64,000 nt of DNA from Catellatospora sp. TT07R-123 (GTDB lineage Bacteria > Actinomycetota > Actinomycetes > Mycobacteriales > Micromonosporaceae): NCBI RefSeq assembly GCF_018327705.1, contig NZ_BNEM01000001.1, forward strand, positions 3,534,001 through 3,598,000, written 5' to 3'. The first letter of the stretch is position 1; the number at the start of each line of letters is the position of its first letter. Under the pieces are notes generated by a model. The model saw only the letters and a program-made list of their open reading frames with translations. It did not search any database and was not told the origin of the DNA. Position numbers and translations under genes: made by a program. Shown here one piece after another: positions 21,285 through 61,582 of this stretch.

Positions 21285-21505
21285 GCACGCCCGTGACATC
21301 GGGCAGGCGCCGCCATGTGATCCGTTCCACGTGGCCGGGACAGCCCTCCCGGTCCACGATACCCATCCCTCCGGCATGGCTAGGCTAGGTCGCCAGAGCA
21401 CCCCGACCCCCTCGCCTGCCGTCCCAGGCCCTTGCGACCAGGGCTCGCCGCGGCGGCGTGCACCATGGCCGCGACCGGCCCACCGCCGCCCGTCAGGAGA
21501 CCAAG

Positions 21506-22474
21506 ATGACCGAGCCAGCGATCGCCACGTCTGAGCCCGTCGACACCCCCGCCCCAGCGCAGCGGGGCAAGCCGGCCCCGCCCGCCCCGACGGCGGCGGC
21601 ACCGACCGCGCCGAGCTGGCTCGCGTTCTCCGCGCTGGCCTGGCTGCTGCTGTCGCTGCTGGTCAACCGGACCGCGTTCACCCCCGGCAGCGCCGACTTC
21701 AATCTCGCCCTGGCCGCCGTCGCCCTGCCCGGCCTGGTCCAGGCCAGCCTGGTCGCGGGCGTGGCCGTCTCGCTGTTCACCACCGGCTGGCTCGACGCCC
21801 GCGGCAACGCCCCGGCCACCGGCGTACGGTTCGCCGCCGGCATCGGCGCGGGCCTGTTCGCCGGCGCCGTCGCCACCTCCGCCGCGCTGCTGGTGTTCGG
21901 GGTCCCCGCCGGTGCGGGCGGCGTGCTCGCGCTCACGGTCGGCCTCGCGGGCGCCCTCGGCGGCGCGCTCGGCGCGTTCAGCGTCCGGCCGCTGCTGCGC
22001 ACCGGCGTCATCGCCGCCCTGTCGGTCATGGTCCTGGCGTTCGTCGCGCACCGGTTCTCCGACCAGCTGCTGCGCCTGTTCGGCGACGACGGCACCCCCG
22101 CCGGGCGGTACGCCGCCAACGGCTGGGTCGCGTTCACGCTGTCCGTGGTCTCCGGCGTGACCGCCGGGCTGCTGGCGTTCTGGCGGCTGCGGGCGCTGTC
22201 GCGCCAGGTCGGGCAGACCCCGCGCTGGCCGCTGTACCTGCTCGCGGGCGGCGCGGCCGGGCTGATGCTGGCCGTGGCCGAGCTGTTCACCCGGCTCGGC
22301 GCGCCGTGGCTGCTCAGCATGGCCAGCACCGACGTCACCGGTGACCAGCTGTTCGAGAGCATCGCCGCCGACTCGCGACTGAACACCAGCCTGGTCGTGT
22401 TCTTCGTCGGCGCGATCACGGCACTGGTCGCGTTCGGCCGCACCCTGCCGAAGGCGACCGCCGACCCGGCCTGA
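21506..22474 (+). CDS. multi-pass membrane protein of unknown function
   Basis: I cannot assign this 322-residue protein to a named family. After a Pro/Ala-rich cytosolic N-terminus (1-36) it has about eight hydrophobic helices (near 37-55, 65-85, 95-120, 125-150, 160-180, 200-222, 238-258 and 290-310). There are no catalytic motifs, cysteines or transporter signatures. The ATG at 21506 is preferred over an earlier start because AGGAGA precedes it by five bases. It appears monocistronic, with the long palindrome at 22521 just after it. Confidence 0.75.
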   Translation: MTEPAIATSEPVDTPAPAQRGKPAPPAPTAAAPTAPSWLAFSALAWLLLSLLVNRTAFTPGSADFNLALAAVALPGLVQASLVAGVAVSLFTTGWLDARGNAPATGVRFAAGIGAGLFAGAVATSAALLVFGVPAGAGGVLALTVGLAGALGGALGAFSVRPLLRTGVIAALSVMVLAFVAHRFSDQLLRLFGDDGTPAGRYAANGWVAFTLSVVSGVTAGLLAFWRLRALSRQVGQTPRWPLYLLAGGAAGLMLAVAELFTRLGAPWLLSMASTDVTGDQLFESIAADSRLNTSLVVFFVGAITALVAFGRTLPKATADPA

Positions 22475-22520: not shown

Positions 22521-22607
22521 CCCCGTTTTTCATAAACGTTGGCCTATCTCATCGAGTTCGATCTACTCGGAATCGATGAGATAGGCCAACGTCGTTCAAA
22601 GACGGGG
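22521..22607. repeat. long dispersed palindrome, copy 1 (20-17-20 hairpin)
   Basis: ACGTTGGCCTATCTCATCGA (22536-22555) pairs perfectly with its complement at 22573-22592 around a 17-base loop. Flanks CCCCGTTTTTCATAA and TCGTTCAAAGACGGGG extend the structure imperfectly. A second copy at 60285-60374 has the same core, geometry and flanks but a different inner stem. It sits between convergent genes, 32 bases beyond the stop of the minus-strand gene. A role as terminator, mRNA-end element or mobile hairpin is open. Confidence 0.9.
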
Positions 22608-22639: not shown

Positions 22640-23152
22640 TCAGGAGGCGAGCAGGTCGGACAGTTCTTCCGGGGCGTACCAGAGGAGGTCCAGGTCCTCG
22701 GCGGAGTCCACGGTGAACTGGGCGTCCGGGTCTCCCCCGGCGGCCCGCTCGACCACCTCGGCGGCCGCGGCGACCACCGGCCCGGCGTCCGGCTCGTCGA
22801 CGTGGAAGCTCGCGATCGCGGCCCGGCGGACCGGGTCGCGCAGCTTCACCGCGCTGGTGCCGAGCTCCCGGCTGTCCGCGGTGATCTGGTCGGCGGGCAC
22901 GTCGACGGAGACCACCACCCGGCGGCGCGGGGCGCTCGGGTCCTCGCGCAGCAGGCGCAGGGCGTCCTGGGCGGCGCGCAGGAAGGCGACGAACTCCAGC
23001 TCCTCCTCGTCGCCCTCGGCGTACCACTCGCGCAGGGCGGGGGTGACGGCGTGGGCGGCGACGGGCGCGCGGCCCAGCTCACCTGATTCGTGCAGGGCCG
23101 CGACCAGCGGCACGGTCGCGGGTAGGTAGACGCGTACGAGTTCCGCCGCCAC
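22640..23152 (-). CDS. DUF6912-like conserved actinobacterial protein
   Basis: This protein of about 170 residues, rich in Glu, Asp and Ala, begins with [12 protein letters not shown], the typical opening of a conserved actinobacterial family (DUF6912). No function is known to me and no catalytic motif is visible. The GTG at 23150-23152 is chosen because GGAGG stands eight bases upstream; the frame stays open further upstream without conservation. The family is usually found near secA, as here. Confidence 0.7.
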
Positions 23153-23235
23153 CTCGGTCACCTCCGGCTCGCACAGGCTGTCGGGGACAGTCTCGCATGT
23201 CCGCCACCGCGCACACCGCAGGCCGCCATCCGATG

Positions 23236-28137: not shown

Positions 28138-28422
28138 TTATGAAGCACGACCTAGACGGGAAACATAGACATAATCGGCGCCAACCAGCCTGCAAAATGT
28201 GGTGAGCCGCTGGAATATTTCGTCATCAATCGCCATCTCGTTTTCGCACAACTGCTCGCATAGCGTCTCGAATCCCAAGATCGACTCGTTCGCCGCGACC
28301 ATCTCGCGAAAGCTATCAAGATCTACGGGAGCGACCTCAATTGCGCTGCTCGAGCCAACTCGGTCCCGCAGGAGGCCGATTAGGAGATCGGCCTCCTGGT
28401 CGATTTTCTTGTGAATGTTCAT
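28138..28422 (-). CDS. MafI-like immunity protein for the EndoU toxin
   Basis: This 94-residue acidic protein has the pattern of MafI-family immunity proteins: two N-terminal helices, then ESILGFETLCEQLCENEMAI and DDEIFQRLTTFCRLVGAD. MafI proteins neutralise MafB toxins, some of which carry EndoU nuclease tips, matching the toxin encoded upstream. Its ATG overlaps the stop codon of the RHS gene by four bases, so toxin and antidote are made together. GC content is low, like the toxin tip, as expected for an exchangeable cassette. The family name rests on pattern recognition only. Confidence 0.65.
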   Translation of the reverse strand: MNIHKKIDQEADLLIGLLRDRVGSSSAIEVAPVDLDSFREMVAANESILGFETLCEQLCENEMAIDDEIFQRLTTFCRLVGADYVYVSRLGRAS

Positions 28423-31400
28423 CTGGGAGGGAATGCCGTCTTCAACAGATTGTCAAACGGCTGATAGATCACACGAATGTTGACGTTCCACCTCGTAGCG
28501 TGCGTGATCCACTTGGCCGGGTCCAAAGCTCTCGTAAGAAGTGATCCTTGAGTGCCTGTCTGGTTACTCCATGCAGTCGCGGGATCAGTCACGATATCAG
28601 AGACCGCGTGCATGATCTTGTCACCCGACCAGTGCCAGGGGAACAAGCTTTTACCCGCGTTTCCAGGCCACAGATGTCCACCAGAGGTAGCCGAGTCTCC
28701 CTGAAGCACGTGCCGAGTCGCCTCCTTCGAGAAGATGTTGACATATCCGCCCGCCGGCTTGGTGAAGGAACTCACGAGTTGCTGGATGGGTCGAACAGCA
28801 GTGCCAAGCGCCGACCGACCAGCGCCCTTGAGGCCGGACATCGCGGCTTGTCCCAAGCCCAGCGCACCAGACCCCAGGCTCCTGGCGCCACCAAGAATAT
28901 TGGCTCCTTCGGCGCGGAAGGCACCGCCGAACTTGCTGACTGCTCCGCTGAGTCCCTCCGCCAGGGCGTTCTTCATCCCGCCGCCGACGACCGCCTTCAG
29001 CCCAGAGCCCACCATCGATCCGAGGCCGCCGAGGGCGGCGCCGGTGACGGTGCCGAAGGCGATATCGCCGACCAGTTCCCAGCCGGTGTGGCCCTTCATG
29101 GTTCCGGTGACCGCTGATCCGACCGCACCAGCGAGCGCCCCGCAGCCGACGGCACCGATACCGGTCCAGCCGATCGCGGCGCCGCAGACCGCGCCCACGA
29201 CCACACCGGCGACCACGCCCGCGATCTCTGCCTTGTGCGCCTCGACCCACTTCTCGGTCGCCTTGTACGCATCCTTGATCGCGTTGCCGGCCTTGCGGAC
29301 GTTCCGCTCAACCTGTGCCCTTACCGCGTGCCCGGCCTGCTTGGCCTTGTTATACGCAGCCTTCGCCTGCTGCTTGTGTGCGGCCGCCTTGTTGGCGGTG
29401 TACTTGCGGCCGGAGTCAGCCCACTTCTTGACGCCCTTCAAACCCAAGCTGTCGGCGGCGTTACTGAGATCGCCCAGCGCTCGGTTGGCGACCCCGTAGC
29501 CCCACGACACAGTCGAGTGGTACGCGGTGGAGACGCTGTTGTTGACGAACTGGCCGACCGAGGAGTTGTTCCACTTCTGGACCGCGCTGCTGGCGACCTT
29601 CTTGGCCCCACAGACGACGTCGTACCAGGAACAGTGGCCGGACTCATCGGTCGCGATCAGCGGGATGCCGTCGCCGTACTGGTAGCGGTTGGCGCCGATG
29701 GAGGCCGGGACCGGGTTGTTCGAGACCGTGTCACGGGAGTCGAACTGGCCGGTGTCCGGGTTGTACCACCGGGCGTGCATGTTGACACGGCTGGTGAGGT
29801 TGTCGGTCCACTCGGACTGGTAGCCCAGGTTGCCGATCATGCCGGTCGCCTGGAGCACCTTGCCCAGCGGGTCGTACGCGGTGGATCCGTCGAGCACCGT
29901 GCCAGTGGCCGTGAACTGGCCCACGACGTCGGTGTGCGCATCGGTGAACGCGTACCGCTTGGCCGCGCCCGCGACTTCGCCGACCAGCTCGCCCGCGGTG
30001 CCGCGGACGTAGGTCGCCGTGCCGTCACCGGCGAGGTCGTTGCCGACGCCGGTGTACGAGAACCCGGGGCGGATCGCCCGTCCCAGGCCGTCGTACTCGT
30101 ACGTCTGCGTACCGCCGGCCGCCTGCTGCGACGCGACCATGTCGAACGCGTCGGACAGGGTGGCGAACGTGCCGCTGCCGTCCGACACCTGGGACAGGGT
30201 GCCCCGGGGGGTGTAGGAGTAGTTCGCCCCGGCGCCCGTGATCAGGCGGTTGCGCTCGTCGTACGTGAACGTCTTCGCGCCGTTCTGCACCCGGTTGCCG
30301 GACTTGTCGTACGCGTAAACCGTGATGTTGGTGCCGTCGTTCCACGAGGTCAGGCGGTTGGCCTGGTCGTAGTCGTACGTGTTCGTGCCGGACTTGGCGA
30401 ACCCGGTGGTCGTCTTGGTGCGCTCGTTGCCGTTCAGGTCGTAGGTGTAGTCGACCTTCGCGACCGTCGTCGGGGTGGCCCCCGTCGTCTTGAGCTCGTC
30501 CAGGTTCATCCGGTGCAGGTCGTCGTACCCGATGGTCCGGACCCGGGTCCCGCTGTACGTGATCTTGTTGACCTGGGACAGGTTGTTGTACTCGTACGTC
30601 GCCTGGACGGCGGTGCCGTTGGTCACCGTCGCCAGCCGGCCGGTGGCCGCGTCGTACCCGTAGACCGTGTCGCCCGCGGCGTCCGACCGCTTGGTCATGC
30701 CGCCGTCGGCGTTGTACTGGAACGACGAGTTGCCCGACGGGCCGGTGACCGAGGTCGGCAGGCCGCGGTCGTCGTACACGAGCGTGTTGGTCCCGCCCGA
30801 GCCAGACAGCGTGGTCATGCGGCCCGCGTGGTCGTAGCCGAAGACGCGGTCCGCGGTCACGACCTCGGCGCCGGTGCCGGACTGGCTGGTCAGGCGGCCC
30901 ATCTCGTCGTAGTCGAAGGTGATCGACACACCGCCGGGCTGGGTCTGCGACACGGTCCGGCCCGCCGCGTCGTACGCGGTGGTGTAGGTGTAGTCAGCCG
31001 CGTTCGGGTGGGTCGCCGTCGCCGGTTCGATGACCGACTCGGGCAGGCCCATCGTGTTGAACGTGGTCCAGAACGGGTTGCCACGCCCGTCGGTGAACCG
31101 GGTGCGGTTACCGGCGAGGTCGTAGCCGAACGAGGTGAGGATCGAGTCCGAACCCGAGATCGGCTGCCGGTACGAGGCGAGCAGGCCGGTCGCGTCGTAC
31201 GCGAAGGTGGTCTTGTAGCCCAGAGCGTCGGTGCTGCTCAGCACGTTGCTGTTGGCGTCGTACTCGGTCGACTCGGTCTTGAGCAGCGTGTTGCCCGACT
31301 TGTAGGCCGAGCTCGACACAGCCCGGTCCGCCAGGTCGTACCCGGTCTTGGTGTACGAGCCGTCGGGCAGGGTCGTCTGCTCCAGGCGGCCGCCGCCGTC

Positions 31401-34400
31401 GTAGCCGTAGTTGGTGACCTTGTTGGCGCTGTCCGTGGAGGTCAGCGTCTGCCCGGCCGTGTTGTAGGTCTTGCCGGTGTGCACGCCGCCGGGCGACGTC
31501 ACGTCCGACACCCAGCCGCCGAAGCCGTAGGTGTACTTCGTCTCCAGCGTCTGGCTGGTCTGGCGGACGTACTCCCGGGTCTTGTCCGTGCGGCCCAGGT
31601 AGTCGTACACCGTCTCGCTGACGGCGCCCTCCGGGTCGGTCACGGTCAGGACGTCACCCGTGTTGTTGTAGGTGTACTTGGTCACGCCGCCGTCGGGAGC
31701 GGTCTTGCGCCACACCCGGCCGAGCTGGTCGTAGTCGTAGCTGCTGACCTCGCCCATCGGGTCGGTGACGGTCTTGACCTGGCCGAGGTCGTCGTAGGTC
31801 GACGTGGTCTCGGGCGTGATCGGCGTCGACGAGCCCGGCGGGGTGTACGAAGGCATCCGCACCTTCACCACGTGACCGGCCGCGTCGTACTCGGTGCGGG
31901 TCCAGTTGCCCAGGGCGTCCTGGGAGTCGCTGACCCCGCCGAACGTGTCGTAACCCGCCCACGAGACGGCGTTGGCCTGGACCGGCGCCTGCCCGTAGGT
32001 CTCAGTCGTGACCTGCGGGGTGGTCGTCTTGACCATCCGCCCGGCCTCGTCGACCTCGTAGGTCGTCGTGTTGCCCATGGCGTCGGTGACAGCCTTGACC
32101 GCACCGTCCACGTCGAGCTGCGACGACGACCGGATGACCTTCGCGTCGGCCGCCGGAACCGTGCCGCCGACGATGCCGCTGATCTCCGAAGTGCTCAGGG
32201 CCTTCTGGTAGAGCTGCACATCGTCGATCTCGCCCTTCCAGTAGTTACCTCGCGATCCGTTGAACATGCCCGCGCCGATGACCAGGGGACCGACGGTGCT
32301 GAAGGGGGTCGAGACGGTGTCGGTGCCCTCCTGAACGCCGTTGACGTACAGACGCATCGTCTTCGTGGTCGCGTCGAAGACACCTGCCAGGTGGGTCCAC
32401 GTGTTGACGGCCGGTGTCGAGGTCGACGCGGGGCCCACGAAGCCCGCGTCGGCGACGTCGCCGTTCTTCATCGTGAACTTCCACGCGCCCGTGCTGTCGT
32501 ACCGCAGATCGAACGGGTTCTGCTGATCCCCCGAGGTGCCGAGGATCTTGCGGGTCTGCGTGTTGTCCGCGAGCCGTACCCAGGCCGCGACCGTGAAGCT
32601 CCGCTTGCTGTCGACGGCGGTGCCGGTCGTGGTCAGGTAGGTCGCGCCGCCGAAGGACGCGGACGTCCCGTGCTCGGTCGACCAGCTGAGGTTCGTGCCC
32701 TTGGCCGGGTTGTTGCCAGCCGCGTCCGCCGCCGTGGTGCCTGCGGTCTCGTCGAGCTTCCACCGGCCGACCGGGGTCGGGCTGGTGGCGGACAGGTACG
32801 TGGTCGCGGCGACCTCGCGGCCCATCGGGTCGTAGATCGACTCGTTGTAGCCGTAGACCTTGCCGGTGCCGTCCTTGTCCGTGGTCGAGATGACACGGTC
32901 GTCGGCGTCCAGGGCCTGGGTGGTGGTGCGGTTGAGGCCCGCCGGGTCGAGCGTCGACTCGTACTGCCGGTTCGCGGCGTCGTACTTGTACGTCATCGTC
33001 GTGGCGCCGTTGTTGGTGACCTGCTGGGTCAGGTTGCCCGCGGCGTCGTAGGTGTTCTGCTCGACGGTGAAGGAGCTGGTGCCCTTCTTGCGCACGACCT
33101 TCGCGACCAGGCCGTTGTCGGTGTAGGTGTACTCGCTGGTGACACCCTCGGCGTCGGTCTCGGAGGCCAGGCGGCCCGCCGCGTAGTACGCCTTCGACGT
33201 CAACACCAGGTCGATACCGGGGGCCGGCAGCGGGTTGGCCGGGTCGCCCCGCCAGCCCTTGACGGTGGTGGTCGTCAGGTTGCCCGTCTCGTCGTAGGTC
33301 GAGAGGGTCTCGTCGCCGTTCTGCTCGACCTCGCGGACCACGCGGCCGAAGTTGTCGTAGTAGAGGGTCGTCGTCTTGCCGGCCTCGTCGGTCGAGGTCA
33401 GCACCTGGTTGTACTGGTTGTAGGTGCTGGACTTCGTCCGCGGCGCGTCACCGCCGACGAGGGTGTCCGCGGTCGTCTCGGACAGGACGTTGCCGTCGTA
33501 GTCGTAGACCGTGGTGGTGATCGCGGTGTGCTGCGCACCCGTGATCCGGTTGGTGATCGTCGGATCGGTCTGCGTCTCGACCCGGTTGGCCTTGTCGTAC
33601 TTGTACGACGTGGTGACACCGGCCGGGTAGCTCTTGTTGATCTCGGTCTCGGAGGTCCGGCGGCCCAGGTCGTCGTAGACGTAGGTGGTGACCAGGCCGC
33701 CCGGGTCGGTGACCTTGGCGACGTCGCCGTTGGGGTAGTACTCGACGGTCTGCACCGCGCCGCCGGGCGTGGTGGTGGTGCGCGGCAGGCCCGCCGGAAC
33801 CGTGGCGTTGTACGCCTCGACGTCGTAGATCCGCGTCGAGGTGCTGCCGTCCTGCGCCGGGACGAGCACCGAGATCTTCAGGTACTTGGCCGCCACCGGC
33901 GCGGGCAGCGTGTGCTTGCTGACCGCCGACGTGTTCCCGCGGACCTGGAGCTGCGTGGTCCACGCGGTGCCGTCGTTCGAGGTGAGGATGTCGAAGTCCT
34001 TGGTGTTGAGGCTCGCGGCCTCACCACCGGCCTCCGCGTGCCGCACCGTGACCGTGGTGAACGTCTGCGCCGTCGGCCACTGCGCCTGGAGCCACGCCGA
34101 GGCGACGTTGGAGCAGAACTTGGACCCGGTGCCGGTGTTGAGGTCGAACGCCTTGTCCGGTGTCTCGCTCGCGCTGCACGTGGTGCTGCCGGTCAGCGTC
34201 GGCGCGTCGGTGTAGACCGTGCTGGTGACGCGGCCGAGCGGGTCGACGACCGCGGTCCGGTTGCCGCGGGTGTCGTACTGGTAGGTCGTCCGGTAGGTGT
34301 TGTCGGTGCCGCTGGCCGAACGGCCGTCGCGCATCTCGGTCATGACGTCGTTGCGCGGGTCCGGGGTGAGCACCCGCGTCACGGCGTCCGGGTAGAAGCT

Positions 34401-37400
34401 GTAGTAGACCGTCGAGCACTTGTTCGTCGAGTAGTCCTGGCAGGTCGTCGACGAGACCGTGTTGCCGCGCACGTCGTGCTCGGTGATCGTGACGTTGCCG
34501 TCCGGGTCGGTGACGGTGCGCAGGAACCCGGCGACGTCGTAGCCGTAGCGGGTCGTCTTGCCGCGTGCGTCGGTCTCGGCGATCTTGCGACCCGTGTTCA
34601 GGTCGGTGATCGTGATCTGCGACTTGTTGTCCGGGTCGGTAGTGGTGATCGACTCGCCCTGGGTTCCGTTGACCTTGTCCCGGGCGGTGAACTGCGCCGC
34701 GACCTGCGAGGCGCTGAGCGCCTGGCGGAAGGTGGCGAACTCGGCGATGCCGCCGTCCCAGTACCCGACGCTGTATTCCGAGCCGATGTTGCCGTTGCCA
34801 CCCGAGTTGTTCAGCGGGACGGGCGACGTCAGCGAAGCCACCTGCGCACCGTTGACGTACAGCTTGACGGCGTTGGTCGTGGTGTCCGCCGTCACGGCCA
34901 GGTGGGTCCACTCACCGATCTTGACCAGGTTGGCCGGCGACGGCAGATCCCACCATGCCTGGGTGCTGTCGGTCTTCGTGCCCTTGCCGATGACGCGCCA
35001 GCGGTCGCCCGCCTTGTCGTAATAGATCTTGAAGGCGCTGCCGATGGCCCCGCCGATCACCGTGACGTACTGGTCGGCGTCCTTGTCATCCATCTTGACC
35101 CAGGCCGACACCGAGAACGGCTTGGACGTGTCCAAGGTCGCGGGCGTGGCCACGTACGAGGTGGTGCCGTTGAAGTCGGCCACGGTGCTGTCGGCGAACG
35201 GGCCGTTGGCGGCACCCAGCGTCACGTTGTTGTACGTGGCGACGTTGCCGTTGATCTGGTTGATCGTGGTGCTCGTGCCGGTCTCGGCGAAGCGGTAGTA
35301 GTCCACGGGCAGTGCCGCGAGCACGGTGCTCTGGTAGACCAGGCTGGTGCCCTGGACGACGGGCGCGTTGAGCTTCCAGACGCCGCCGTTCTCGTCGGTG
35401 ACGTCCGAGACCATGCCGCTCACCCGGTCGTAGTTGACCGACGCGGCGATCTTGGTGCCCGACGGGCGCTTGACGGTCTTGAGCAGCTCGGTGGAGCGCT
35501 TGGCGTCGAAGAGCGCCTTGGCGTCGTCTGCCGTGAGCGCGCGGTCGAAGAACGCCGCCTCCGCCAGGGAGCCGTTGAAGTAGTCACGCGTGCCGGTGTT
35601 CTTGTTGGCGTCGGCGTGGCTCTGGTTGGGCCAGTTGCCGCCGAGGTAGCCCAGGCCGAGGTAGGTGGACTTCTCCTCGATGCCCCGCACGAACAGGCCG
35701 GACTGCGACGCCTTCTCGACGCCGTCCACGTAGATCTTCTGCTGGTCGCCGAAGGCGGACAGCACCGCGTGGTGCCAGTTGCCGTCGGCGTAGGAGGCCG
35801 TCGTCGCCATCGGCGCGTGCAGGCGGCTGTGCCAGGCCTGGTTGAGCTTGGGCACCGGTCCGCAGCTCCACAGCTGCAGGAACGTGCCGTTCGCGACGCC
35901 GTTCTGCTCGACGTCGACGCACTTGCCGGACTGCTGGCCGACGATGCGGCCGTCGGCCAGGAGGGTCCATTTCTGGTTGATGCCGGTGCTGCAGCTGTAG
36001 ACGATGAGGTCGGTGCCGTCCGCGGTCGACGAGCCGTTGGCGTCGAGGCACTTGGTGACGCCGTTGGACGTCACCGCGAGCCGGGACGAGGAGTCCAGGG
36101 TCCACTTCTGGTGGGCCCCGCCGTTGCAGTCCCAGATGTAGGCCCGGTCCGCGTTGTTCAGCGGGATGCCGGCCTCCATGCACCTGCCCGCGCCGGTGCC
36201 GACGATGCTGTCCAGGGCGCCGGTGGCCGGGGCGGTCGGGAAGCCGCCCATGAGCTTGCCGTCGGAGCCGAGGTAGAGGGTCGGCTGGTAGGCGCCGTTG
36301 GAGGTCGCGGCCGTGGCGGGATCGTCCCAGGACTGGCTCAGCAGGACGTTGTCACCGGTGCCCGAGGCGGCCTTGAACCACATGCTGACGGACCGGTAGC
36401 TGGCGTTCGAGGCCAGGTTCGACGGGACCTTGACCGAGGACGCGGTGCCGTTGAAGCTGACGGCCTTGCCCGTCCCGCCCGACAGCGGACCGGTCTGGTT
36501 GTAGGTGAGGGCGGTCGCGGTGCCGTTGTCGACCCCGGCGTTGTCGGTCACCGCGCTCTTGGCGGGGCCGGCCGCGGTCTCGTTCAGCCGCCAGTAGGAG
36601 CGCGGGCCGTAGTTGAGCACGACGCTCTGGTAGACCGAGTTGGTCTCGTAGGTGTAGGCCGTGCAGTGCGCCCAGTCGTTGGGCGGGCAGACCGAGGTCA
36701 GCTTGTCCCCGGTGTAGTTGTACTGCCAGGTCTGCACCGAACTCGCGTCGGCCGGGTCGGCCTGCTGGCCGTAGACCGTCGCCACGTGGAACGCGGTCGC
36801 GCCGCTCGGCTGCGACCAGGTGAAGTACAGCTTCCGGCCGGAGGCCGCGATCATCTTCGACAGACGGTTGCTCGCGTCGTACTCGAAGGTCTCGGTGCGG
36901 CCCTGCGCGTCGGCGGCGGAGCTGATCGCGTACGCGCCGGTGGCGATGTTCTTGGCGAAGACGTACCTGGTGCCGTCCTTGTCCACCAGCTCGTAGCCGC
37001 CGCCGGTGACCGATTTGAAGGTGGCGAAGCGCCCGCTCGGCGGGCTGAACGTGGTCGCCGGGGCGGCGTCCTTGCCGAACGCGACGTCCTGGCCGTTGGG
37101 GTAGGTCACCAGGACCGTCTGCAGCGCGCCGGTGGCGTCGGTGCGCTCGACCGCCCGGGAGTCGGCGATGCCGGCCCAGCCGAAGCCGAACGCGCCGTTG
37201 CGCGGGTCGACGCTGTTGTACGAGCGCTGCACCGACAGCGACGGGCCGACCGTGCTGACCGTGGCGTCCGTCGCGGCGGTGGTGTAGTTGCCGGAGGTCG
37301 GGTCGAAGCCCTTGTCGCCGTTCTGCGACAGGCCGGAGGTGATCGTCGGCTGCGGCACCGGCGTGCTCAGCATGTTGAACTTCTGCGACGTGCTCGGAAG

Positions 37401-39305
37401 CTGGCCGTCGTTGGCGATCACGGTCCACAGGTAGTTCTCGCCCCAGGCGAGCTTGCCCGAGGGCACGACCCAGCGGCGGTCCGTGCTGGGGGTCGACTCG
37501 GCGATCAGCGTGGTGGCCGTCTTGTCCCAGACCTGGAACTTGTACGTGAGCGTCTTCGGGAAGGAGTCCGGGTCCTGCCCGTAGGCGAGCAGCTCCGGCG
37601 TCAGCGTGGGCGACTGGTAGCCGTGCGGCGGGTACTGCGTGTCCACCTGCGGCGGCACGTTGAGCGCGTAGGTCAGCGACAGCATCGGCTTGTGCGCGCC
37701 GCTGCTGTAGTTGGCCGCGGTGAACCGCTTCCAGCCCTTGGGGTCGGTCTCCGACGCGGTCAGCGCCAGGCCGTAGTTCGGGCCGCCGATGGACCAGTCG
37801 TTGAAGGTGCCCGGGTTCAGCAGGACGGTCTGGTTCTTGCCGATATTGCGGTCGGCGCCGGTATTGGTGCAGGCCGGGTAGTTGTCGGCGATGGTCAGGG
37901 TGCCGATCGCGCTGCTGCGCGTCGGACCCGGCAGCGTGCTGGTGGCCAGGTTGGCCACCGACCACGACTGGAGCACCTTGTGCACGTAGACCGGCAGGTG
38001 CGAGGTGCAGTCCCAGGACCAGGTGTGGAACACGGTCAGCGACGCCGCGGTGATGCGCTTGCCGATGAACCCGTTGTCGTCGAACTGGTCGAAGGCGATG
38101 AAGCTGCGCGCCGGGGACTCGTTGTCGTAGCCGACCGCGAGCGAGGTGCCGTTCTGCGTCGACGAGTCGGTGCTGGTGTCGTTGTCGACGAAGACGTCGG
38201 CGGTGGTGCCGGTGTTCGCGGTCGCGGTCGGGTCGACCCGCACCGGGTACACGCGGGCGGGGTCGCGCAGCCAGGCGTCGTCGGCGGTCACCCGCAGCGC
38301 GGTGCCGTCCGCCGTCTTCACCAGCTCGAAGACGACCTTGTCCGAGGAGATGCGCTCACCGGTGCGCTGGTCGACGCGCGAGTCCTCCATCCGGCCGCGC
38401 GGGAACGACGCGACGGCCTTGCCGGCGGCGTCGAGCAGGGCGATGGAGCCGTCTTCCTCGACCCGGGGGGTGAGCCCGTCCAGGTGCAGCGGGTAGAGCC
38501 AGGAGTGCGGCGCGTCCGGCGAGGCCAGGACCAGCGTCTCCTCGACGCCGGTCTCGAAGGTGCGCAGTTCGAGGTCGGTCTGGGGCAGGACCTGCCGGTA
38601 CGTCGCCAGCGAGCCGTCCACCACCGGCGCCACGTCCGCGGCGTCGGCCAGGTCGTAGCCGAGCGTCTGGCCGCCCGGCAGCGCCATCGACACCAGCGCG
38701 TCGGCCGCGCGGGCGGCCTTGCGGCTGCTGCCGCCCAGCGAGACGTCCAGCGAGTTGGCCTTCATGCGCAGCCGGCCGTTGCCCTGGCGCTGCAGGTCGG
38801 TCTCGATGGGCTGCCAGGTGCCGTCCGCGGCCCGGTAGTTGACCGGCCCGGGGTGCAGCTGGCGGGTCAGCGTGCCGTCGGCGTTCTGGAAGACGTCCGC
38901 GGTGCGGGTCGACCGGTCGGCGAGCCGCCTGCTGGTCGCCGGGTCGAACTTTCCGCTGGTCAGCGGGGTGGTCGACGGCTTGCCCCTCTGGTCCGGCAGG
39001 TCGTACGCGGGGAGCGCGCCCGGCGCGTGGCCGGGAGCGCGGCCGTTGCCGCCGTGGGCGCGGTTGTCCGCGGCCGACGCGTCGTGGCCGAGGCCGGCGG
39101 CGCCGTTGAGCTCGTGGCCGGAGGGGCCGAGCAGCATGTCACCCGCCCAGGCGCCGCGCTGCGGCACCCACGAGTACAGCCAGGCGAGCGGGAACCCGCC
39201 GTCAGCCGGCACCACCCCTGCCGGCACCGCGAATGTCAGTCCGAACAGGACCGCGGTGATGAACGCGATCCGGTGCGAAAAACGCCTGGTCGAACGACCG
39301 CCCAT
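28419..39305 (-). CDS. giant secreted RHS-repeat polymorphic toxin with EndoU-type nuclease tip
   Basis: This 3,628-residue protein starts at the ATG preceded by GGAGGAG and has a signal peptide (about 1-36). In order I see a DNRLRE-type adhesion domain (about 395-585), a DUF6531-like start of the RHS shell (about 680), a LamG-like domain interrupted by a ricin-type QxW lectin (about 1040-1170), a second LamG domain (1345-1540), a discoidin-like domain (1700-1840), a third LamG domain (2180-2370), dozens of YD repeats, and the RHS core (about 3140-3220, DTGQFDSRD). After an Ala/Gly-rich hydrophobic stretch (about 3310-3420) the tip (3520-3628) has EndoU features: H3532 in HVLQGD, H3544 in GGH, K3552, FPWHWSGD and a terminal LKTAFP. 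It probably kills competitors by cutting RNA. The immunity gene overlaps its end. Confidence 0.9.
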   Translation of the reverse strand: MGGRSTRRFSHRIAFITAVLFGLTFAVPAGVVPADGGFPLAWLYSWVPQRGAWAGDMLLGPSGHELNGAAGLGHDASAADNRAHGGNGRAPGHAPGALPAYDLPDQRGKPSTTPLTSGKFDPATSRRLADRSTRTADVFQNADGTLTRQLHPGPVNYRAADGTWQPIETDLQRQGNGRLRMKANSLDVSLGGSSRKAARAADALVSMALPGGQTLGYDLADAADVAPVVDGSLATYRQVLPQTDLELRTFETGVEETLVLASPDAPHSWLYPLHLDGLTPRVEEDGSIALLDAAGKAVASFPRGRMEDSRVDQRTGERISSDKVVFELVKTADGTALRVTADDAWLRDPARVYPVRVDPTATANTGTTADVFVDNDTSTDSSTQNGTSLAVGYDNESPARSFIAFDQFDDNGFIGKRITAASLTVFHTWSWDCTSHLPVYVHKVLQSWSVANLATSTLPGPTRSSAIGTLTIADNYPACTNTGADRNIGKNQTVLLNPGTFNDWSIGGPNYGLALTASETDPKGWKRFTAANYSSGAHKPMLSLTYALNVPPQVDTQYPPHGYQSPTLTPELLAYGQDPDSFPKTLTYKFQVWDKTATTLIAESTPSTDRRWVVPSGKLAWGENYLWTVIANDGQLPSTSQKFNMLSTPVPQPTITSGLSQNGDKGFDPTSGNYTTAATDATVSTVGPSLSVQRSYNSVDPRNGAFGFGWAGIADSRAVERTDATGALQTVLVTYPNGQDVAFGKDAAPATTFSPPSGRFATFKSVTGGGYELVDKDGTRYVFAKNIATGAYAISSAADAQGRTETFEYDASNRLSKMIAASGRKLYFTWSQPSGATAFHVATVYGQQADPADASSVQTWQYNYTGDKLTSVCPPNDWAHCTAYTYETNSVYQSVVLNYGPRSYWRLNETAAGPAKSAVTDNAGVDNGTATALTYNQTGPLSGGTGKAVSFNGTASSVKVPSNLASNASYRSVSMWFKAASGTGDNVLLSQSWDDPATAATSNGAYQPTLYLGSDGKLMGGFPTAPATGALDSIVGTGAGRCMEAGIPLNNADRAYIWDCNGGAHQKWTLDSSSRLAVTSNGVTKCLDANGSSTADGTDLIVYSCSTGINQKWTLLADGRIVGQQSGKCVDVEQNGVANGTFLQLWSCGPVPKLNQAWHSRLHAPMATTASYADGNWHHAVLSAFGDQQKIYVDGVEKASQSGLFVRGIEEKSTYLGLGYLGGNWPNQSHADANKNTGTRDYFNGSLAEAAFFDRALTADDAKALFDAKRSTELLKTVKRPSGTKIAASVNYDRVSGMVSDVTDENGGVWKLNAPVVQGTSLVYQSTVLAALPVDYYRFAETGTSTTINQINGNVATYNNVTLGAANGPFADSTVADFNGTTSYVATPATLDTSKPFSVSAWVKMDDKDADQYVTVIGGAIGSAFKIYYDKAGDRWRVIGKGTKTDSTQAWWDLPSPANLVKIGEWTHLAVTADTTTNAVKLYVNGAQVASLTSPVPLNNSGGNGNIGSEYSVGYWDGGIAEFATFRQALSASQVAAQFTARDKVNGTQGESITTTDPDNKSQITITDLNTGRKIAETDARGKTTRYGYDVAGFLRTVTDPDGNVTITEHDVRGNTVSSTTCQDYSTNKCSTVYYSFYPDAVTRVLTPDPRNDVMTEMRDGRSASGTDNTYRTTYQYDTRGNRTAVVDPLGRVTSTVYTDAPTLTGSTTCSASETPDKAFDLNTGTGSKFCSNVASAWLQAQWPTAQTFTTVTVRHAEAGGEAASLNTKDFDILTSNDGTAWTTQLQVRGNTSAVSKHTLPAPVAAKYLKISVLVPAQDGSTSTRIYDVEAYNATVPAGLPRTTTTPGGAVQTVEYYPNGDVAKVTDPGGLVTTYVYDDLGRRTSETEINKSYPAGVTTSYKYDKANRVETQTDPTITNRITGAQHTAITTTVYDYDGNVLSETTADTLVGGDAPRTKSSTYNQYNQVLTSTDEAGKTTTLYYDNFGRVVREVEQNGDETLSTYDETGNLTTTTVKGWRGDPANPLPAPGIDLVLTSKAYYAAGRLASETDAEGVTSEYTYTDNGLVAKVVRKKGTSSFTVEQNTYDAAGNLTQQVTNNGATTMTYKYDAANRQYESTLDPAGLNRTTTQALDADDRVISTTDKDGTGKVYGYNESIYDPMGREVAATTYLSATSPTPVGRWKLDETAGTTAADAAGNNPAKGTNLSWSTEHGTSASFGGATYLTTTGTAVDSKRSFTVAAWVRLADNTQTRKILGTSGDQQNPFDLRYDSTGAWKFTMKNGDVADAGFVGPASTSTPAVNTWTHLAGVFDATTKTMRLYVNGVQEGTDTVSTPFSTVGPLVIGAGMFNGSRGNYWKGEIDDVQLYQKALSTSEISGIVGGTVPAADAKVIRSSSQLDVDGAVKAVTDAMGNTTTYEVDEAGRMVKTTTPQVTTETYGQAPVQANAVSWAGYDTFGGVSDSQDALGNWTRTEYDAAGHVVKVRMPSYTPPGSSTPITPETTSTYDDLGQVKTVTDPMGEVSSYDYDQLGRVWRKTAPDGGVTKYTYNNTGDVLTVTDPEGAVSETVYDYLGRTDKTREYVRQTSQTLETKYTYGFGGWVSDVTSPGGVHTGKTYNTAGQTLTSTDSANKVTNYGYDGGGRLEQTTLPDGSYTKTGYDLADRAVSSSAYKSGNTLLKTESTEYDANSNVLSSTDALGYKTTFAYDATGLLASYRQPISGSDSILTSFGYDLAGNRTRFTDGRGNPFWTTFNTMGLPESVIEPATATHPNAADYTYTTAYDAAGRTVSQTQPGGVSITFDYDEMGRLTSQSGTGAEVVTADRVFGYDHAGRMTTLSGSGGTNTLVYDDRGLPTSVTGPSGNSSFQYNADGGMTKRSDAAGDTVYGYDAATGRLATVTNGTAVQATYEYNNLSQVNKITYSGTRVRTIGYDDLHRMNLDELKTTGATPTTVAKVDYTYDLNGNERTKTTTGFAKSGTNTYDYDQANRLTSWNDGTNITVYAYDKSGNRVQNGAKTFTYDERNRLITGAGANYSYTPRGTLSQVSDGSGTFATLSDAFDMVASQQAAGGTQTYEYDGLGRAIRPGFSYTGVGNDLAGDGTATYVRGTAGELVGEVAGAAKRYAFTDAHTDVVGQFTATGTVLDGSTAYDPLGKVLQATGMIGNLGYQSEWTDNLTSRVNMHARWYNPDTGQFDSRDTVSNNPVPASIGANRYQYGDGIPLIATDESGHCSWYDVVCGAKKVASSAVQKWNNSSVGQFVNNSVSTAYHSTVSWGYGVANRALGDLSNAADSLGLKGVKKWADSGRKYTANKAAAHKQQAKAAYNKAKQAGHAVRAQVERNVRKAGNAIKDAYKATEKWVEAHKAEIAGVVAGVVVGAVCGAAIGWTGIGAVGCGALAGAVGSAVTGTMKGHTGWELVGDIAFGTVTGAALGGLGSMVGSGLKAVVGGGMKNALAEGLSGAVSKFGGAFRAEGANILGGARSLGSGALGLGQAAMSGLKGAGRSALGTAVRPIQQLVSSFTKPAGGYVNIFSKEATRHVLQGDSATSGGHLWPGNAGKSLFPWHWSGDKIMHAVSDIVTDPATAWSNQTGTQGSLLTRALDPAKWITHATRWNVNIRVIYQPFDNLLKTAFPPR

Positions 39306-58513: not shown

Positions 58514-59965
<1,452 letters not shown>

Positions 59966-60284: not shown

Positions 60285-60374
60285 CCCCGTTCTTCAATAG
60301 ACGTTGGCCTATTACGTGGACTGAGAAGAGATCATCTTCCACGTAATAGGCCAACGTCTATGGAAAAGCCGGGG
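60285..60374. repeat. long dispersed palindrome, copy 2 (20-17-20 hairpin)
   Basis: ACGTTGGCCTATTACGTGGA (60301-60320) pairs perfectly with its complement at 60338-60357, and the stem extends four more pairs outward (ATAG/CTAT). The loop has 17 bases. Flanks CCCCGTTCTTCA and GGAAAAGCCGGGG match copy 1 in kind. It lies 38 bases beyond the manA stop on the minus strand, the same position relative to its gene as copy 1. Confidence 0.9.
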
Positions 60375-60412: not shown

Positions 60413-61582
60413 TCAGAGGGAGCCGGTGTACGCCTCGCCCGCGCCACTGAAGGTCAGGGAGCCGCCCGCGGGCAGCCCGTACGCCGCCTCGCCGCCGCGC
60501 AGCGTCACCGACCCGCTCTCGTCGCCCACCGTCACCGTCCCGGCCGCGCAGAACACCGTCCGCGGCCCGTCCAGCGCCACCCGGGCCTCGCCGACCTCGT
60601 CGTCCAGCCGCACCCGATGCAGCCGGAAGTCGGGCACCGGCACGCTCCAGGTGACCACGCCGGGCGCGACCGGCTCGGGGTCGCGTACGGGCTCGTGCAG
60701 CGGCTCGAAGCGCAGCACACGCAGCAGCTCCGGCACGTTGACGTGCTTCGGGGTGAGACCGCCGCGCAGCACGTTGTCGCTGGCCGCCATGATCTCGATC
60801 CCGGCGCCGCGCAGGTAGCCGTGCAGGTTGCCCGCCGGCATCCAGATGCCCTGGCCGGGCTCCAGCAGCAGGTGGTTGAGCAGCAGCGACACGACGACGC
60901 CGACGTCACCCGGGTATTCCTGCGCCAGGCGGCGGACCAGCCCGCGCGGGCCGCCGCCGACCTCGCCGGACGGCAGCTTGCCGGCGTTGGCGGTGACCTG
61001 CTCCAGCAGGTCGGCCCGGTCCGCGGCGGGCCAGCTCAGCAGGGTCTGCACCGCTTCGCGCAGGTCGCCCGCCGCCAGGGCGCCGACGACGCGCTTGAGC
61101 CCGGTGACCGACAGCGCGTCGACGAGCTCGGCGGAGGCGGCCGGGGCGCGGAAGCCGCACAGCGCCTCGAACGGCGTATACGCCACGAGCAGCTCGGGCT
61201 TGTGGTTGCCGTCGACGTAGCTGCGGTGCGGGGCGGTGCGGGGCACGCCCGCCCGCTCCTCGGCGGCGAAGCCGTCGGCGGCCTGCCGCGCGTCGGGGTG
61301 GGCCTGCAACGACAGCGAGCGCTCCGCCGCCAGCAGCTTCATCAGATACGGCAGGCGCGCCCCGTACGCGGTGTGCGCGTCGGCGCCGAGCAGTTCGCCC
61401 GGCGCCGACGCGATGGCCTCGGCCAGTGACCGGCCGTCGATCGTGGAGGGGCTGTCGGGGTGCGCGCCGATCCACAGTTCCGCTTCGGGTCCCGCACTGG
61501 GCACCGGCCGCCCCTGGACCTGCGCGATGATCTCGCGCGATCCCCAGGCATACGGCCGGATCGGGTTCTGGAGTCGGCGCAC
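60413..61582 (-). CDS. manA: mannose-6-phosphate isomerase, class I
   Basis: This 389-residue zinc enzyme interconverts fructose 6-phosphate and mannose 6-phosphate for GDP-mannose and glycan synthesis. The type I pattern is clear: NPIRPYAWGSRE at the start, LSLQAHPD with zinc ligands, the HKPELLVA motif and the catalytic NLHGYLRGAGIEIMAASDNVLRGGLTPKH region (read as family consensus near 255-283). The GTG start follows the cation efflux gene by five bases. It joins the SIS-domain isomerase upstream in one sugar-phosphate operon. Confidence 0.95.
   Translation of the reverse strand: MRRLQNPIRPYAWGSREIIAQVQGRPVPSAGPEAELWIGAHPDSPSTIDGRSLAEAIASAPGELLGADAHTAYGARLPYLMKLLAAERSLSLQAHPDARQAADGFAAEERAGVPRTAPHRSYVDGNHKPELLVAYTPFEALCGFRAPAASAELVDALSVTGLKRVVGALAAGDLREAVQTLLSWPAADRADLLEQVTANAGKLPSGEVGGGPRGLVRRLAQEYPGDVGVVVSLLLNHLLLEPGQGIWMPAGNLHGYLRGAGIEIMAASDNVLRGGLTPKHVNVPELLRVLRFEPLHEPVRDPEPVAPGVVTWSVPVPDFRLHRVRLDDEVGEARVALDGPRTVFCAAGTVTVGDESGSVTLRGGEAAYGLPAGGSLTFSGAGEAYTGSL

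Follow-up and report, generated by a model that had tools for sequence, protein, structure and literature searches.

Gene-end hairpin cassettes of Catellatospora: one family, shared slots and switched types

Gene ends are known to carry short palindromic repeats. Two long palindromes in a stretch of 64,000 nucleotides of Catellatospora sp. TT07R-123 (the window) raise the question of how such repeats spread without a RAYT transposase and whether they live as parasites or serve as functional transcript ends. Both belong to a dispersed family of fixed geometry that lies at gene ends, has covarying stems and occupies slots that are shared between species and often carry different types. The two palindromes and their neighbours in the window are as follows.

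21458..22474, plus strand: gene for a 338-aa protein without a Pfam match, ending 46 bases before copy 1
22521..22607, no strand: copy 1, whole hairpin with outer CCCCG/CGGGG flanks, between convergent genes
22532..22596, loop orientation minus: copy 1, conserved unit of type A, 65 bp with 24-base arms and a 17-base loop
22540-22588: copy 1, core TGGCCTAT...ATAGGCCA, inner arm CTCATCGA
22640..23161, minus strand: DUF6912 gene, stop 32 bases past copy 1 on its other side
58514..59965, minus strand: S-adenosylhomocysteine hydrolase (AdoHcyase) gene, downstream of copy 2
60285..60374, no strand: copy 2, whole hairpin with outer flanks, in a tandem gene gap
60297..60361, loop orientation plus: copy 2, conserved unit of 65 bp, placed in type A among the copies of this genome
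60305-60353: copy 2, core, inner arm TACGTGGA
60413..61582, minus strand: phosphomannose isomerase type I gene, its stop followed by 38 bases up to copy 2

Both palindromes named in a preliminary description of the window were confirmed. Copy 1 has a perfect stem of 20 bp (ACGTTGGCCTATCTCATCGA) and a loop of 17 bases, with CCCCG from 22521 and CGGGG up to 22607, and copy 2 has a perfect stem of 24 bp (ATAGACGTTGGCCTATTACGTGGA) around a loop of the same size. The window has two matches to the pattern GGCCTAT-N20..50-ATAGGCC where 0.01 would be expected, and 0 of 100 shuffles have two or more; the two copies are also the two longest inverted repeats listed for the window (arms at most 80 bases apart). 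Folded as RNA from either strand, they reach -54 to -64 kcal/mol (z = -9.6 to -12.3). The copies had been said to share one orientation, but their loops, judged by the off-centre GATC, face in opposite directions. That each lies 32-38 bases past the stop of a minus-strand gene is correct, but copy 1 also follows the plus-strand gene at 21458-22474.

The preliminary description did not recognise a known family, and we can add none. An Rfam scan of the window at the gathering score gave no match at the hairpins and returned only a tmRNA gene (RF00023, 5329-5701, minus strand); sub-threshold matches at the copies were mostly to microRNA models (14 of 14 in one scan, 6 of 9 in another). We found no paper on this hairpin family in the open-access literature, and in the text available from open-access papers that name Catellatospora, words with 'palindrom' refer to CRISPR only.

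Number, geometry, fold and position of the family

In the genome that contains the window (G000; 9.17 Mb in two contigs) there are 118 exact palindromes TGGCCTAT-N-ATAGGCCA when the gap is left free from 20 to 50, and 0 in the reversed-pattern control, which bears out the idea of a dispersed family. The gap is 33 or 34 in the 50 G000 copies listed, and the core ends are 49 bp apart in 281 of 288 copies from 11 genomes. Of the fixed 20-17-20 geometry first proposed, the fixed spacing therefore stands and the arm length does not: the usual paired arm of the family is 24 bp, as in copy 2. Contig 1 has no exact copy between 0 and 1.38 Mb, a stretch in which about 18 were expected; one mismatched copy lies there at 143.6 kb.

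We examined 113 G000 copies, namely 103 of the 118 exact ones (the other 15 were left out) and 10 with mismatches. A simple rule separated them into 89 of type A, with an inner arm like NNCRTCGA and usually an off-centre GATC in the loop, and 24 of type B, with an inner arm like CYAGAGGAC. In a profile of 110 of the 113 copies, the conserved stretch extends from position -7 to the mirrored position on the other side, spans 65 bp and includes ATNGACGYTGGCCTAT and a GA at the loop end. Positions between the conserved stretches of this unit are variable and mostly paired, and the outer CCCCGTTTTT...AAAAACGGGG forms a weaker consensus than the unit itself.

The covariation reported from two copies was seen again when 73 copies of 49 bp, drawn at random from nine species, were aligned without gaps. 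In the main 24-pair helix 95.1% of the pairs are standard; 7 are invariant and 11 changed on both sides, while the outer 10 pairs are paired in only 56.0% of cells. The covariation score for all 34 pairs was 0.277, versus 0.143 for shuffled (0 of 500 as high) and 0.046-0.106 for slid alignments, a score that relatedness of the sequences alone can push above shuffles. Of the 269 two-sided changes, 157 fall in the six inner pairs (positions 9-14). Pairing is thus kept, by whatever process, and much of the signal stems from types A, B and C. The earlier step from two differing copies to selection on the fold does not hold, since the two may be copies of different variants. G-U pairs did not significantly exceed A-C pairs on the sense strand (33 v 23, p 0.23), and selection on an RNA strand, as it might be seen through such a bias, was rejected.

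The location at gene ends applies to the whole family. With genes called by a coding model trained on G000 itself, 66 of the 112 G000 copies with genes on both sides lie between convergent, 40 between tandem and 6 between divergent genes; 1 of the 113 lacks a gene on one side and is unclassed. The same loci contain 113 further gaps that measure at least 110 bp, of which 7 are convergent, 55 tandem and 51 divergent (convergent excess at copies, 66/112 vs 7/113, Fisher p 1.4e-18). Copies in tandem gaps (39 of 40 used) lie at a median of 51 nt past the stop and 132 nt ahead of the next start, with the upstream stop the closer of the two for 32 of 39. The direction of the loop is independent of that of the genes (sense in 17 of 40 tandem copies, p 0.43). 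This combination of gene-end placement and random loop direction fits a two-way 3'-end element, and it also fits a mobile hairpin that has been removed from promoters by purging. Taken as a class, long hairpins are mostly intergenic (206 of 224 in 1.5 Mb).

The exact core pattern is present in 11 of 11 Catellatospora genomes, with 1 to 132 copies each, and in 0 of 50 genomes of the same family or order outside the genus. G000 has 118 exact copies, G009 has 132, G002 and G008 have 1 each, and G005 has 56, a number that may include sites counted twice because the G005 assembly contains a duplicated stretch. A scan of species genomes gave at least 120 matching stretches, all of them Catellatospora among the matches listed. 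The covariance model that had been suggested was built and matched 10 of 121 genomes of the family, 8 of these Catellatospora, among them G002 with 15 and G008 with 12 matches (both strands summed); with at most 35 candidates scored per genome, these counts are lower bounds. Outside the genus the model matched 2 of 113 genomes; the two belong to a single other genus and gave 1 and 2 matches, which were weaker. The proposed searches of the genome and its relatives thus turned up further copies as well as conserved pairing. Exact pattern matches in viral contigs and matches to copy 2 among plasmids and phages both numbered 0, and carriage by viruses or plasmids was rejected for this reason.

A second family of similar architecture, TTGCCNGGCA-N-TGCCNGGCAA, has 145 copies in G000 and 14-138 in seven other genus members sampled; outside the genus 2 of 113 genomes gave one match each. 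In the examined loci 35 of 36 copies have one length (53 bp), and the gap is tandem or convergent for 33 of 36; examples are found at L184:6794-6859, L151:15334-15395 and L173:6408-6468. Its inner positions 11-13 are variable and paired in 54-74%, a figure that stands without a shuffle control, and by eye its outer arms differ between lineages. Further families of long hairpins at gene ends occur in the sister-species regions L131-L205 (GATCGCTGTTTCGTGTC, GCAGTTTCGGGGAAA, ATCCGTTTTTGTGGACGC, AAGGGCACCTT and GCCGCAACTCTTAAAG), and several hairpins of the last kind lie in divergent gaps. By eye, the loops of the first and second families have an AAGAT-like stretch in common (AAGATCG and CAAGATACG), which may be the mark of a common reader or a product of chance.

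Slots shared between species and their switched types

We compared seven syntenic regions of about 20 kb each from ten sister species. In a tree of 47 genes G000 groups with (G005, G009) at a coding distance of 0.074-0.075, with G002/G008 beside these three and the remaining six species together. Cross-species typing added a type C, with the inner stem CTGGATGA. Type A dominates in G004 (16/16) and G006 (29/29), type B in G005 (16/16) and G009 (30/36), and type C in G010 (12/13); G001 is mixed (27 A, 14 C), and G000 has 87 A, 26 B and 2 unclassed (n=115). The samples from species other than G000 are minimum counts or come from chosen regions. When the arms of 288 copies were typed separately, both were assigned in 229, one in 48 and none in 11, and 0 of the 288 had arms assigned to two different types. 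By nearest consensus the arms of the 288 agree in 262, tie in 24 and differ in 2 (L009, L231).

Orthologous slots often differ in type. Among 180 slot pairs the type differs in 101, is the same in 71 and is unclassed in 8; when an extra G001 copy is set aside, the numbers are 95, 69 and 8. Type A in one genome corresponds to type B in the other at 10 of 12 slots for G000-G005 and 15 of 24 for G000-G009, and to type C at 4 of 4 for G004-G010 and 5 of 5 for G004-G007, genome pairs with a coding divergence of 4.6-7.5%. Both window slots are filled in G005 and G009, with type B in place of A. The similarity of G000 inner arms at shared slots is 0.86 to G004 (4 pairs), 0.43 to G005 (12) and 0.55 to G009 (24). 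Since the G000 arms are closer to those of the distant G004 than to those of G005 and G009, type A is probably the older at these slots and B probably replaced it in the G005/G009 line.

The anchors beside the two window slots are 38.7 kb apart in G000 and about 26 kb apart in G005 and G009. The window also contains, at 28419-39305 on the minus strand, a gene for an RHS-repeat protein of 3628 aa with lectin-like domains and a weak C-terminal match to an EndoU nuclease, and because of the different anchor spacing the stretch with this gene may be an addition in G000.

Other slots are empty in some relatives. One example is the q8 11093 slot, which lies between murD and an FtsW-like gene that scores below its family cut-off: six species have the element there and five do not, and the intergenic length is 161-218 bp with it versus 70-81 bp without it (a difference of about 90-110 bp). 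As the empty slots here and at q4 8595 hold no other long hairpin, the element is not essential at these two places. At the copy-2 slot eight other species have a diverged hairpin of nearly equal length, as judged by eye in the alignment, and G001, G006 and G007 retain one half core there within two mismatches. At some other slots a hairpin of a different family occupies the gap.

Copying between slots and the replacement of types

Three pairs of copies have identical 33 inner bases at unrelated places within one genome, and such near-identical copies show that cassette sequence has been copied between slots. In 368 close same-genome pairs (at most 5 mismatches in the 33 inner bases, both orientations) flanks are at background: identity exceeds it strongly at positions 9-10, slightly at 0 and -4, and not at all from -5 outward. 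The copied tract thus measures some 59 bp or slightly less and lies within the 65-bp conserved unit. The preliminary description had offered a 3' element or a mobile hairpin; both remain in play, and they are not exclusive, since slots after genes are common to several species and sequence is copied between these slots.

Do the flanks stay when the type changes? The 30-base flanks of switched slots scored 14.8 v 11.3 in the control (n=36) and 12.7 v 10.8 (n=25), with 0 of 60 control sets as high in each case. Single switched pairs exceed the 95th percentile of the control in only 6 of 36 and 1 of 25 cases, and same-type pairs in 13 of 37 and 4 of 18. The flank score of close same-genome copies is slightly raised too (13.9 v 12.1, 0 of 60 control sets). 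The switched classes of the inner-box and flank tests, and the A/C class, comprise only pairs in which both copies could be classed; the comparisons of inner boxes, loops and same-type loops were confined to 49-bp copies. Wholly vertical evolution of each slot was rejected, because the inner box of switched orthologues is no more alike than that of control pairs.

Same-type orthologues retain loop similarity. Across the switch between G000 and G005/G009 the similarity of the loops is 0.23 v 0.23 in the control, and at A/C-switched slots, with orientation left free, it is 0.55 v 0.53 (67 of 500 controls as high); inheritance of the loop through A/C switches was rejected, as it is not significant once the orientation of the control is freed as well. 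Loop orientation was kept at 9 and flipped at 2 A/C-switched slots. Inversion of the loop was flagged in 3 same-type pairs, two of which involve the extra G001 copy, leaving one clean case (G010-G007), and it was also seen in 2 A/C pairs.

We give even weight for and against the reading that these are bidirectional transcript-end hairpin cassettes, mostly overwritten in place by other copies until one dialect dominates the genome. Dispersed just past stop codons and mostly between convergent genes, the cassettes would give RNA arriving from either side a very stable 3'-end hairpin. Position and fold suggest this role in RNA 3'-end formation, where the hairpin may terminate transcription or protect Rho-terminated transcripts from 3' exonuclease. 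Points against the reading are the missing U-tract after the stem, the poorly paired outer helix, the non-significant G-U excess and the slots that are empty in some relatives. A copy would overwrite the resident cassette of an existing slot, with the near-invariant core of both arms (GACGYTGGCCTAT / ATAGGCCARCGTC) providing homology or recognition, through short-tract conversion or template switching, and repeated overwriting would let one version, or dialect, prevail throughout a genome. Units of gene conversion are expected to be longer than about 60 bp.

The chief alternative is a REPIN- or MITE-like mobile hairpin with a putative transposase that favours gene 3' ends: the subfamily particular to each lineage would insert at the same kind of site, in many cases next to an older copy that later disappears. 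We keep this as a possible account, though one we would not bet on, and raise overwriting no higher than even, because few single switched pairs retain their flanks and the boundary of the copied part is blurred. Clear retention in only 7 of 61 such pairs speaks for insertion, and the slightly raised flanks of close same-genome copies fit an element that moves with some of its flank; the average retention at switched slots speaks against it. The existence of types, the range of 1 to 132 copies per species and the presence or absence of about 90-110 bp at q8 11093 resemble transposition. At one G001 slot (L152:2552-2709) a C-type and an A-type cassette lie about 95 bp apart, as expected of insertion beside an older copy; this double cassette is possibly a replacement intermediate. 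Only 6 of 233 copies, however, have another half-core within 250 bp. Exact half-cores in 2.5 Mb of loci are paired in 325 cases and single in 1, and no longer element or transposon with these exact ends was seen in the examined loci. The single case, at L250:6204, is itself a shortened hairpin with a smaller loop, which suggests an internal deletion. Half-cores with 2 mismatches were unpaired in 75 of 183 cases (1.48 Mb), by eye mostly in coding stretches. No target duplication was recognised by eye between occupied and empty slots, whose flanks are too diverged to show one clearly. Also against a mobile hairpin, a search for the Y1_Tnp family, the one transposase family searched, found no gene in G000, G005 or G009, the genomes with 118, 56 and 132 copies.

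A bolder version of the overwriting account is more speculative. A homing-like system would include candidate machinery that repeatedly overwrites, in place, the cassettes residing at some 100 slots; the slots would persist and whole genomes would change dialect. This machinery might work through hairpin single-stranded DNA, reverse-transcribed RNA or a core-reading recombinase. At least one further Catellatospora hairpin family may follow the same principle. We regard this version as tentative.

It is improbable, in our view, that selection alone made the dialects, with a trans-acting protein or RNA that reads the core and inner stem and whose shift in specificity is followed by point mutations and compensatory changes at every site. 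Such a reader would account for a core that is near-invariant across species while the adjoining intergenic DNA diverges, for the genome-wide coherence of the types and for the 9 to 2 excess of kept loop orientation, but the identical inner hairpins at unrelated places point to copying, and across the switch between G000 and G005/G009 the loops are no more alike than in the control. Ordinary intrinsic terminators under compensatory mutation, with a common core by convergence, are very improbable: 3'-end location, covariation and the other hairpin families at gene ends, sometimes in the same slots, would suit them, but convergence would not be expected to give a long near-invariant arm segment in more than 100 copies, a 49-bp spacing in 281 of 288, genome-wide types or copied inner hairpins, and no U-tract follows the stem at copies 1 and 2 or at the G000 copies, or was reported at the copies by scans. 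Outside the genus the exact core occurs in 0 of 50 genomes, and the model gave weak matches in 2 of 113.

Relation to known repeats and meaning for the family

REP/REPIN elements are dispersed extragenic palindromes associated with RAYT transposases (PMC3116915, PMC3733652), and the Catellatospora hairpins resemble them in being dispersed, extragenic, palindromic, numerous and lineage-specific, in forming a hairpin from an inverted pair and in lying mostly after genes or between convergent genes. REP sequences have an unpaired GTAG or CGTC tag and stems of 5-13 or 8-9 bp (PMC3116915, PMC3733652). The CGTC of the Catellatospora arm, in contrast, is inside the paired arm (base-paired in 69 to 73 of the 73 aligned copies at its four positions), and exact half-units practically never stand alone. 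A profile search for PF01797 (Y1/RAYT transposase) gave 0 in G000. The profile is present in 6 of 11 genus genomes and absent from G000, G002, G005, G007 and G009; RAYT-driven REP was rejected for G000 on this ground, and copy number in the genus does not track PF01797. Type switching at conserved slots is not described for REP/REPIN in the available parts of PMC3116915 and PMC3733652. The family is one of REP-like dispersed gene-end palindromes without the REP tag, the single half-unit or the RAYT link.

Untagged stem-loop repeats are named for M. tuberculosis and D. radiodurans (PMC3733652). Such REP-like families share with ours the lack of a terminal tag or known transposase, and as far as the text seen of PMC3733652 and PMC2267715 goes, they have no described 24-17-24 unit, species types or copying between slots. 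The dialects of the DNA uptake sequence of Neisseriaceae are likewise genome-wide motifs with a conserved core that differ between species, and they frequently form inverted pairs tied to terminators (PMC3630211). These are often intragenic (PMC3630211), whereas 325 of 326 exact half-cores in Catellatospora are paired. Intrinsic terminators of Bacillus cereus evolve by compensatory mutation (PMC5381666) and resemble the family as gene-end hairpins with covarying stems; the Catellatospora hairpins differ from them by their common core, fixed geometry and copying between loci, and by the missing U-tract.

With about 100 slots, a fixed geometry and close species that have slots in common but use different dialects, the family is a test bed for the questions asked at the outset. 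The core would offer a handle for isolating a candidate factor. If overwriting in place is true, the cassettes would evolve in concert as units of some 60 bp, and 3'-end elements would be rewritable across a whole genome.
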